Assembly: GCA_000818095.1 (NCBI GenBank)
Contig: CP009416.1
Span: 866,501 to 930,500 of the forward strand
DNA length: 64,000 nucleotides
DNA from: Jeotgalibacillus malaysiensis
Lineage (GTDB): Bacteria; Bacillota; Bacilli; Bacillales; Jeotgalibacillaceae
Direction: 5' to 3'
The position numbers and the translations under genes were made by a program. Positions 34,549 through 36,426 of this stretch are shown one piece after another. Within the stretch, counting starts at the first letter, position 1; each line of letters opens with the position of its first letter. Below the pieces are notes generated by a model. It searched no databases. It was given only the letters and a program-made list of their open reading frames with translations, and had not been told where the DNA came from.

Positions 34549-35067
34549 TTAATTCTTATGTAAAAGCATCTTCTTAATCATTCTGATCTGCCCGCGGTGA
34601 TTGATTTCATCTTCCATCACATGATACCAGAACCAGTAGTTATTATGAGAAACACCATTATCCCACTTACCTTCTTGAAACAGCCATTCTTCATTTTTTG
34701 AACTCAAAATAGAATATGTTTTTTCTCTGGTTTCCTGCAGGATATTCAAGTAATACTCAAGTGGATGATTTCTGATCTCGTTGCTTGCTTCAGATCCAAG
34801 AAATAGTGCAGTTTTCCATTTTGAAAATTCTTCTTCATTTAAATCTCTGTCTTCGTGCGTAATTACCTGGTGAACAAAATCCACTGATGCGATGTGCATG
34901 AGAAGTGCGCCTATTGAGTTTGCGCCGTCGTAAGCGATGAAATCAAGGTCATCCTGGCTTAGGTCTTTGATATCTTCAAGCAGGACAGCTCTTGAGTAAT
35001 CAAGCATTGCAACCAGTTCGCCAATTTTCCCTTCAAAACCTTCTTTTTCTTTTATGGTAAATTCCAT
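34549..35067 (-). CDS. DinB-family protein
   Basis: A 172-residue four-helix-bundle protein of the DinB/YfiT superfamily, which includes metal-dependent thiol transferases of low-molecular-weight thiols. Three His positions suited to a metal site are visible: His in SIGALLMHIASVD, His in FWYHVMEDEINHRGQI, and the second His of that block. The start at 35067 is chosen because GGGAGG stands 7 bases before it. It is full length, unlike the truncated DinB relative at 19646-19765. The reaction is unknown. Confidence 0.87.
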   Translation of the reverse strand: MEFTIKEKEGFEGKIGELVAMLDYSRAVLLEDIKDLSQDDLDFIAYDGANSIGALLMHIASVDFVHQVITHEDRDLNEEEFSKWKTALFLGSEASNEIRNHPLEYYLNILQETREKTYSILSSKNEEWLFQEGKWDNGVSHNNYWFWYHVMEDEINHRGQIRMIKKMLLHKN

Positions 35068-35196
35068 TTGAATCCTCCCTGAAATGCAGTATAAATCTAA
35101 TCTTAACAGTAAAAAAATGGAGAACAAGGCTGATAGATTTAGAGGATAAATGCTATAATTAAATCAAGCATTCATGATAAGGGAATAGCGTTTCCT

Positions 35197-35236
35197 GTGA
35201 CACTACACTGAAATTAAGGTATAGTAAATTTACTAT
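35197..35236 (+). promoter_or_regulatory. mph promoter with palindrome over the -10 region
   Basis: GTGACA (35197-35202) and TATAGT (35220-35225) are 17 bp apart, five of six matches to each consensus. The perfect 16-bp palindrome ATAGTAAATTTACTAT (35221-35236) covers the -10 and the expected start of transcription, so a repressor may bind here. Confidence 0.7.
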
Positions 35237-35256
35237 ATAAGAGGAGGGTTATAAAA

Positions 35257-35301
35257 ATGTATTCAGTGAGACTACGCCAGCAAACTTTGAACAATCAGTA
35301 A
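35257..35301 (+). CDS. 14-codon leader peptide with Arg-Leu-Arg stalling motif
   Basis: GAGGAGGG stands 8 bases before ATG 35257, which encodes MYSVRLRQQTLNNQ and a stop. The peptide has the basic-X-basic motif (Arg-Leu-Arg at codons 5-7) at which macrolide-bound ribosomes stall. Its overall look, including the TLN.Q end, resembles the ErmD leader. It lies 229 bases upstream of a macrolide phosphotransferase-like gene. Codons 10-13 form one arm of an RNA stem with 35309-35317, so a stalled ribosome would change the folding downstream. Confidence 0.82.
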   Translation: MYSVRLRQQTLNNQ

Positions 35302-35346
35302 TTTCATATGTTCAAAGGCTCTGTTTTCATAAATGGAGTAAACGGG
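35285..35346 (+). promoter_or_regulatory. leader RNA pairing elements (putative antiterminator strand)
   Basis: CTTTGAACA (35285-35293) pairs perfectly with TGTTCAAAG (35309-35317). Next comes GCTCTGTTTTC (35318-35328). It is complementary in two blocks to the 5' arms of both downstream terminators, at 35399-35409 and 35469-35482. GTAAACGGG (35338-35346) is the exact complement of CCCGTTTAC (35458-35466). Confidence 0.6.
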
Positions 35347-35397
35347 AGAAGTCTGCACATTTTTAATTACCTTCAACGGATCAATTTTTGCCGCTGA

Positions 35398-35428
35398 AGA
35401 AAGGCAGAGGAGGTCTGTCTTTCTTTTT
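35398..35428 (+). terminator. attenuator terminator 1 before mph
   Basis: AGAAAGGCAGA (35398-35408) and TCTGTCTTTCT (35414-35424) form an 11-bp stem with one G-T pair and a GGAGG loop, and T4 follows. It lies between the leader peptide and mph. Confidence 0.75.
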
Positions 35429-35468
35429 GTATATCAAGGGAGACATTATTTAGTGTACCCGTTTACCC

Positions 35469-35497
35469 GAAACCCGCAGAGCAGTCTGCGGGTTTTT
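35469..35497 (+). terminator. attenuator terminator 2 before mph
   Basis: AACCCGCAGA (35471-35480) and TCTGCGGGTT (35485-35494) form a perfect 10-bp stem with a GCAG loop, and a T run follows. It ends about 20 bases before the mph ribosome binding site. Confidence 0.88.
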
Positions 35498-35529
35498 GAA
35501 TTAATTAAAATAATATGGAGGTATTTAAA

Positions 35530-36426
35530 ATGAAACAATCAGAAATTATTCATTTAGCTAAACAGGAAGGATTGCTGTTGTCAGAAGAAAGCTTTAAAAT
35601 CAATGAATCCGGCGTGGATTTCAGAGTGGCACATGCGACAGATCTGCAGGGCGAAAAGTGGATTTTACGCATTCCGCGCCAAAAGGAATCAATGAGGCAT
35701 GCAATTATTGAGAAGCGTGCACTCGATATTTTGAGTGGAAACGTCACTTTCCAGGTGCCGCGCTGGTCCATATTTACAGATCAGCTGATTGCTTATCAGC
35801 AGCTTGACGGTGTTCCGGCCGCAACAATAGATATGGAGCAGCAGGTATATGTGTGGGAGCTTGATGAGCAGAATCCGCCAGAAGAATTTTATCGTTCGCT
35901 GGGGAAAGCAATGGCGGAACTGCATACATTGGATACTGAGTTACTCAAAGATGCCGGTATCACAATCATTGAAGGAAAAGATATGAGAGCTGCAATGAAG
36001 GAAAGAATGAATCGTATCAAACAACATTTTGATATCCATCCGGCACTTTGGGAGCGCTGGGAAAAATGGCTGGCAAATGAACAGATATGGCCGGCGCATT
36101 CAGGTGTGAGACATGGCGACCTACACCCTGGTCACATTTTGATCAATGAGGAAAGTGCAGTGACCGGGTTCATCGACTGGACAGAAGTAAGCGTCGGTGA
36201 TGTATCATTCGATTTTACAGCGCATCTTCAGATCTTCGGAAAAGAAGGACTTCAAAAGCTGCTTGATGCTTATGGTGCTGCAGGCGGGCGGACTTGGTCA
36301 GGGATGGCTGCGCATATTGAAGAGGTGAAAGCAGCTGGAGCAATTGTGGTTGCTGAGTATGCATTAGTGTCGGGGCTTGATGAGATGCATAAGATGGCTA
36401 TTCAGATGCTTGGGGCAAGTGAGTAA
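35530..36426 (+). CDS. mph: macrolide 2'-phosphotransferase-like kinase
   Basis: A 298-residue cytosolic antibiotic kinase of the APH fold. The catalytic loop is VRHGDLHPGHIL, with the catalytic Asp, and the metal motif FIDWTEVSVGDVSFDF has its Asp. The HGDLHPGH and IDWTE forms are those of the Mph group that phosphorylates the 2'-OH of macrolides with GTP, rather than of aminoglycoside kinases. The length is typical (about 295-305). The start at 35530 has GGAGG 8 bases upstream. A leader peptide and two terminators precede it, which suggests drug-induced attenuation. Activity is inferred, not shown. Confidence 0.85.
   Translation: MKQSEIIHLAKQEGLLLSEESFKINESGVDFRVAHATDLQGEKWILRIPRQKESMRHAIIEKRALDILSGNVTFQVPRWSIFTDQLIAYQQLDGVPAATIDMEQQVYVWELDEQNPPEEFYRSLGKAMAELHTLDTELLKDAGITIIEGKDMRAAMKERMNRIKQHFDIHPALWERWEKWLANEQIWPAHSGVRHGDLHPGHILINEESAVTGFIDWTEVSVGDVSFDFTAHLQIFGKEGLQKLLDAYGAAGGRTWSGMAAHIEEVKAAGAIVVAEYALVSGLDEMHKMAIQMLGASE

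Follow-up and report, generated by a model that had tools for sequence, protein, structure and literature searches.

A probable ermD/ermK-type transcription attenuator upstream of a macrolide kinase gene in Jeotgalibacillus malaysiensis

What is the role of a short reading frame with an Arg-Leu-Arg (RLR) motif upstream of a macrolide kinase gene? The locus was identified in a stretch of 64,000 nucleotides of Jeotgalibacillus malaysiensis DNA (contig CP009416.1, positions 866,501 to 930,500), here called the window; coordinates are positions in the window, on the forward strand unless otherwise stated. The leader peptide MYSVRLRQQTLNNQ, given by the sequence and its open reading frame translation, comprises 14 codons from the ATG at 35257 to the end of the TAA at 35301, with the RLR codons at 35269-35277. 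A preliminary description of this DNA had reported a strong ribosome-binding site before the peptide, and the AGGAGG at 35242-35247, read directly from the sequence, bears this out; it falls in invariant or nearly invariant columns of the element alignment (A1). The leader had also been placed 229 bases before an Mph-type kinase gene. This order was confirmed, with 228 bases between the two (229 is the difference of the positions), the start of mph being taken as the ATG at 35530 behind the GGAGG at 35517-35521. The promoter of the preliminary description held in part. A putative sigma-70 promoter, GTGACA-17-TATAGT, is present at 35197-35225, and the nearest relative carries the identical two hexamers, 17 bases apart with different spacer letters, upstream of its leader, but the number of such matches in the region was not above the shuffle count (five found, 4.5 expected).

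The gene at 35530-36426 encodes a protein of 298 amino acids. The best NCBIfam model was MphL (NF038057), with 411.5 bits over residues 4-295 and an E value of 1.9e-123; the name MphL proper was rejected, as the score is below the 612-bit cut-off of that model. The product also matched Pfam APH and the solved Mph enzymes (solved Mph II, E 3.5e-83). Judged by full-length similarity, the kinase is a member of the macrolide 2'-phosphotransferase family. It has a single close copy in the genome, the second match being just 24% identical, and the RNA element described below likewise occurs once, the other model match having an E value of 9. A thiol-transferase/DinB-like gene (Pfam MST and DinB) at 34549-35127 on the reverse strand is oriented divergently from the mph leader. 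Two Priestia plasmids (H10 and H19) likewise have DinB-family genes beside their leader-mph unit.

The region is best read as an ermD/ermK-type attenuator, in which the ribosome would control transcription into the macrolide kinase gene, and the probability of this reading is put at roughly 84%. The preliminary description had compared the leader with ErmD-type leaders on the basis of the basic-X-basic motif. The likeness was found to exceed the tripeptide, as the RNA is homologous to a Bacillus licheniformis ErmD leader (74.8% over 95% of the 141-base query). The conserved RNA core at 35237-35372 scored 140.2 bits with the model R1, which has the window sequence in its training set; an ErmD leader outside that set (H6/L283) scored 132.9 bits with an E value of 2e-28. 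On this similarity the window element belongs with the known ermD/ermK attenuators, with mph as the gene behind it. The B. licheniformis system, with the leader MTHSMRLRFPTLNQ, shares the 14-codon RLR leader, the order of hairpins, the GAGUAAACGGG strand and the terminator-like hairpins, whereas the gene controlled is a 23S rRNA methyltransferase instead of mph, and the ErmD leader has the N-terminus MTHSM and FP after RLR where the window has MYSV and QQ. Arrest of ErmDL at Arg6-Leu7-Arg8, with codon 7 in the P site, is described with erythromycin or telithromycin in PMC8298421, where stalling is stated to depend on the residues before RLR. ErmK is reported to be transcription-attenuated with the leader MTHSMRLRFPTLNQ in PMC4335068 and PMC5418344.

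Three other systems resemble the window element. The hflXr attenuator rli80 of Listeria is described in PMC6310831 with a 14-amino-acid RLR leader, transcription attenuation and induction by erythromycin and lincomycin; the leader type is that of the window and the attenuation that proposed for it, while the downstream gene differs. The mef(E)/mel attenuator of streptococci, with the RLR leader MTASMRLR and transcription attenuation according to PMC4335068, is similar in both respects, but its RNA is not detectably related. R1 gave only 11.4 bits (E 0.28) on mef(A) leaders from two phages of Streptococcus suis, one locus of which (L307) encodes MTASMRLR, and membership in the streptococcal mef family was rejected; blastn of the element against phages gave no match. 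Since its RNA matches that of ErmD and not the mef(A) leaders, the window element would work like ermD/ermK and streptococcal mef, but is kin to ermD/ermK only. The tlrB (yxjB) leader of Bacillus subtilis, MIIQFIRYR, shares the R-X-R motif, but has nine amino acids; PMC6851288 describes a terminator and a start-hiding hairpin and a response to tylosin and not to erythromycin. No match to the element was found in Rfam 15 at gathering score; five sub-threshold matches fell in 35100-35560, the best with an E value of 0.052. Within the whole window, a cobalamin riboswitch at 842-1022 (101 bits) alone reached the gathering score of an Rfam family. No report of an RLR attenuator on an mph gene was found in the accessible text of the open-licence literature searched. 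The wide reuse of one RNA, and a leader residue that varies with the class of gene that follows, also go beyond what was found in print.

R1 matches were found in at least 133 of 397 genomes of the same order and in 91 of 398 genomes drawn from the class, some of these shared with the same-order set. Among genomes drawn from the phylum there were matches in 14 of 398, eight of them outside the class by the kinship label of the search. From the listed element sites 100 of 120 were fetched, together with loci from the order and class searches. The first gene behind 185 unique elements was Mph in 53 cases, an Msr-type ABC-F in 32, HflX in 30, Mef-like in 29, Erm in 16, RlmA-like in 12 and LmrB-like in four, with others or none in nine; as mph loci were fetched first, these counts lean to mph. 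The classes were obtained by blastp clustering, with NCBIfam names for one or two representatives of each cluster, several below curated cut-offs, and the names therefore apply at the level of the family. On the element tree the gene class changes 43 times, with few forks supported. Two elements (L192 and L202) precede a sugar ABC transporter ATPase and an OsmF-like binding protein; a resistance gene has possibly been lost there.

It is proposed, tentatively, that in Bacilli one homologous RNA chassis stands before at least six unrelated kinds of gene for resistance to ribosome-targeting drugs (Mph, Msr ABC-F, Mef-like, Erm, HflX and RlmA-like) and that the residue two before RLR (position -2) may act as a drug dial matching the sensor to the resistance spectrum. 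With the same reserve, a small S, A or G could fit erythromycin-type drugs and a bulky F or Y tylosin-type drugs. In PMC8298421, substitutions of ErmDL Ser4 are reported to reduce erythromycin stalling except for Ala or Gly, and its side chain to sit in a small cleft between the sugars. Of 79 Mph and Mef leaders, 71 had S, A or G at position -2, as did seven of 29 HflX leaders and one of 12 RlmA-like leaders. In ten of the 12 RlmA-like leaders the residue was F or Y; the tlrB leader of B. subtilis has F at this place. Taken together, the Mph, Mef, ABC-F and Erm leaders had a small residue in 98 of 122 cases, versus the one of 12 for RlmA-like. Erm leaders were mixed (six S, three W, three F, one T and three unassigned). 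The leader MTHFMRLRFPTLNQ before RlmA-like genes and MTHSMRLRFPTLNQ before Mef and ABC-F genes differ solely at position -2. Comparing RlmA-like leaders with the rest, position -2 was the most informative of nine (excess 0.156, next 0.053), whereas for all six classes position -3 was slightly more informative (0.641 versus 0.614). A tree test of position -2, in which T was also counted as small and the element tree was poorly resolved, gave one well-supported independent pair, agreeing in 0.8 of random pairings; with HflX added there were three pairs, 1.3 for and 1.1 against.

By analogy, the Ser two before the first Arg of the window leader makes erythromycin-type drugs the expected inducers. 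It could instead be argued that the element mainly senses other stalling drugs, such as 16-membered macrolides or lincosamides, given that tlrB answers tylosin and not erythromycin (PMC6851288), that lincomycin as well as erythromycin induces hflXr (PMC6310831) and that the context before RLR is reported to matter (PMC8298421). This is unlikely, although it is the strongest of the alternatives. The window Ser occupies the place of ErmDL Ser4 as described in PMC8298421, S or A is found at that place in 44 of 51 unique mph leaders, and the downstream gene is a macrolide kinase homologue.

The leader was found to form the 5' opening of an attenuator of about 240 nt with two terminator hairpins. 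The region folds with a z-score of -4.8, and none of 100 shuffles was that low. In the outer helix, identified as an inverted repeat and by covariation, the spacer and AUG of the leader (35252-35260) pair with ACAUUUUUA at 35357-35365. Helix P0, obtained from folding, strand pairing and covariation, joins the RLR codons (35269-35278) to GGGAGAAGUCU at 35344-35354, a strand that overlaps the alternative helix. The 5' strand of P1 (35285-35293) lies inside leader codons 10-13 and its 3' strand at 35309-35317 (inverted repeat, covariation), and the P2 hairpin follows at 35318-35339 (folding, covariation). An alternative helix would join GUAAACGGG at 35338-35346 to CCCGUUUAC at 35458-35466, immediately upstream of terminator 2, both strands being placed by inverted repeat, strand pairing and stall folding. 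Terminator 1 (35396-35426, -16.1 kcal/mol) and terminator 2 (35471-35494, -17.1 kcal/mol) are predicted intrinsic terminators, each followed by a U-run. A generic terminator scan of the region gave the first hairpin only, with no excess over shuffles (one found, 1.5 expected); a second scan recovered both, and terminator 2 is also seen as an inverted repeat. The preliminary description contained neither the terminators nor the leader-anchored hairpins and the alternative helix. It had proposed that macrolides stall the leader and thereby induce mph, and had named no step downstream of the stall; the structures described here point to transcription attenuation as that step.

In the proposed mechanism a macrolide would stall this leader and raise mph transcription. 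Without drug, the leader would be translated and released, the RLR codons would pair with GGGAGAAGUCU in P0, and P1 and P2 would form; the start of the leader itself would be covered by the outer helix, and RNA polymerase would halt at terminator 1 or 2. Once a macrolide occupies the exit tunnel, translation would stall with Leu6 as the P-site and Arg7 as the A-site residue, and the ribosome would hide the 5' strands of P0 and P1. The GUAAACGGG strand thus freed would pair with CCCGUUUAC beside terminator 2, and read-through into mph would be favoured. In free RNA ending just before terminator 2, P0 had a median of 8.4 expected pairs and the alternative helix 0.0. When the leader was masked by a ribosome reaching from its binding site to a point 16 bases beyond the first base of the Leu codon, the median for the alternative helix was 8.2 pairs, with a gain of more than three in 90 of 108 loci. 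These 108 were picked from 129 because the alternative helix could be placed at -9 kcal/mol or better, and are thus informative on exclusion, not on frequency. In the other 21 of the 129 loci the alternative helix was too weak for placement, and in five of the 108 it was preformed without a ribosome. For the window it reached 5.7 expected pairs, yet the stalled minimum-energy fold shows other pairs. In full-length equilibrium folds with RLR masked by the ribosome, the terminators still formed in each of four loci, the window included, so that antitermination would have to be kinetic. Capture of terminator 1 by GUCUGC:GCAGA was rejected as the main switch, since equilibrium folding gave a shift on stalling in only 11 of 66 loci. 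A pseudoknot between GUCUG and the terminator arm is conceivable as a means by which the alternative helix might disable terminator 2.

The structure was also examined across homologues. In 49 sequences a nested structure was found, consisting of the outer helix (leader start with CAUUUUUAAUAAUC), P0 (RLR codons with GGGAGUAGUCU), P1 and P2. In this four-helix structure 94.0% of cells were paired, compared with 34.2-48.1% when it was slid by one to three columns. Changes on both sides of a pair were seen in 38 cells versus 8.7 in shuffles, and none of 500 shuffles was as high. Covariation resided mostly in the outer helix, where seven of 14 pairs had changed on both sides; one such pair was found in P0 (87.3% of cells paired), one in P1 and two in P2. 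Native strand pairs of P0, P1, the outer helix and the alternative helix (GAGUAAACGGG with CUCGUUUACUC) beat swapped ones, with none of 2000 permutations as good, in a test of 170 unique elements with 13 dropped, where a misplaced anchor in some rows adds noise. For the alternative helix the pairing was -12.6 for native strands, -11.2 for swapped strands and -9.2 with the downstream stretch shuffled. Of 157 loci, 154 had at least one terminator in the stretch from leader to gene and 94 had two or more; the 157 are those of the 185 unique elements that have a gene of a named class no more than 650 bases away. Base-shuffled stretches gave at least one terminator in 11 of 157 and two or more in none.

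These terminators bear on whether control could be exerted mainly at translation, with a released strand or a hairpin hiding the mph start and the terminators mattering little. The strand closing the outer helix (35361-35375) and the stretch at the mph start (35516-35530) show 87% complementarity, the two pair in the predicted fold of the window, and hairpins over the gene start are present in the ABC-F and erm loci read. Such control as the main mechanism is nevertheless improbable, somewhat more so than the sensing of another drug class: the window has two terminator hairpins, at least one is kept in nearly all of the 157 loci, and a start hairpin of the ABC-F type was not found in the short-spacer mph loci read (the window, L054, L073 and L074). 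Transcription attenuation thus remains the preferred reading for mph, to which the complementarity of the two window stretches may possibly add translation control. The hairpins of the TTACATTCCTTT/AAAGGAAGTGTAA type over the start of the first gene in L065, L042 and other ABC-F or erm loci suggest translation control on top of termination in those loci.

A blastn search of plasmids gave 19 records with the element, and no feature was listed under the match in a gene table that is incomplete by its own description. Examination covered 16 of the 19 matches (H15, H17 and H18 were left out). The genes were mphN in four (H5, H11, H12 and H14), and another mph in four (H7, H8, H10 and H19). H2-H4 carry mef(F)-msr(G), H9 carries an MFS gene and, at a greater distance, msr(G), and in H13 and H16 an RNA methyltransferase gene precedes msr(I). 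H6 has ErmD, while H1 is cut by the end of the record. An Exiguobacterium plasmid (L305) has no feature listed over the RLR leader before mphN, and on the same plasmid an ErmL attenuator leader is named by RefSeq (101-184 of L305).

A relative of the same genus as the window (L055) has the order leader, ABC-F, mph. At E 1e-3 or better, pieces of ABC-F genes were found in the spacer of seven of 40 leader-mph loci; both ends of the gene are represented in L068, L076 and L089, and three loci matched only weakly. From this gene order and these pieces, the leader-mph arrangement is likely to have arisen, in at least some lineages, by loss of ABC-F out of a leader-ABC-F-mph operon. Beside the ABC-F remnants of L076 stands a leader variant, MMHSGRIWSRTLNNK, with RIW in place of RLR. 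The gene order in L055 and the spacer pieces could also be taken to mean that the switch served a lost ABC-F gene and no longer regulates mph in the window. That it is such a relic is quite improbable, as the window locus keeps RLR and helices P0, P1 and P2 along with the two terminators and the strands of the alternative helix, and the search of its spacer for ABC-F pieces gave none.

The element was further examined at the level of the mph loci and of the leader codons. Mph relatives at E 1e-40 or better were found in 70 of 397 same-order genomes, giving 71 loci that were all taken with their upstream DNA. The ermD-type element was present upstream of mph in 53 of these 71 sampled loci of the window's order (nhmmer E 1e-3 or better), with mph as the first gene behind it in 40, ABC-F in ten and HflX in three. 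Its presence by identity to the window protein was 30 of 34 loci at 50% or more, 20 of 29 at 44-50% and three of eight below. Of the 18 loci where no element was found at this threshold, some (L075, L080 and L104) have another short RXR peptide nearby. A few elements lacked RXR in the leader called by script, L112 and L119 among the mph loci. Three of 19 pattern matches (L035, L046 and L047) look like chance by their peptide and neighbours.

The preliminary description had pointed to RLR codons conserved amid variable flanks as the pattern to look for, and this was the pattern found. For the unfiltered codon count, R1 matches in the 100 fetched loci were taken with no peptide filter, R1 itself being built from filtered leaders. 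They gave 95 distinct elements, of which 93 align over nine codon positions, the weak L269 and L273 being set aside for gaps. All 93 had R-X-R/K (92 R-X-R and one R-X-K), and pN/pS was 0.16 for RXR, 0.51 for the next two codons and 1.06 for TLN. The filtered counts demanded R-X-R/W, and Arg is there by construction; they gave 0.12, 0.77 and 1.03 for 173 of the 185 unique elements, and 0.18, 0.75 and 0.83 for the 50 leaders of the mph subset. The TLN codons form one side of P1, and a low ratio in RXR with a ratio near 1 in TLN is what is expected if P1 holds TLN and the peptide holds RXR. Judged by these ratios, the RXR stall motif is conserved at the peptide level and TLN is without such peptide constraint. 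Short RXR frames are common, but a chance frame with an RLR tripeptide has a negligible probability here, being refuted by conservation, codon-level selection and covariation.

If the attenuator works as proposed, mph resistance in this group would be inducible, and susceptibility tests without induction could miss it. The shared RNA chassis and the natural leader variants make it testable how the leader sequence sets the macrolide that is sensed; a study of uORF consensus versus inducibility for ABC-F genes is called for in PMC10201436. Several variants were observed in addition to those above. L083 has the leader MMLPGRIRLRTLNEK. The leader of L080, MMLHGRLR, stops right after RLR about 70 bases before mph, with no significant element match; by its sequence it may be either a shorter, different attenuator or a decayed one. 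In L042 and L043, Amphibacillus erm genes stand behind the mph-type leader MTPSGRLRQQTLNNK, the gene of L042 being nearest to ErmC/ErmG by NCBIfam.
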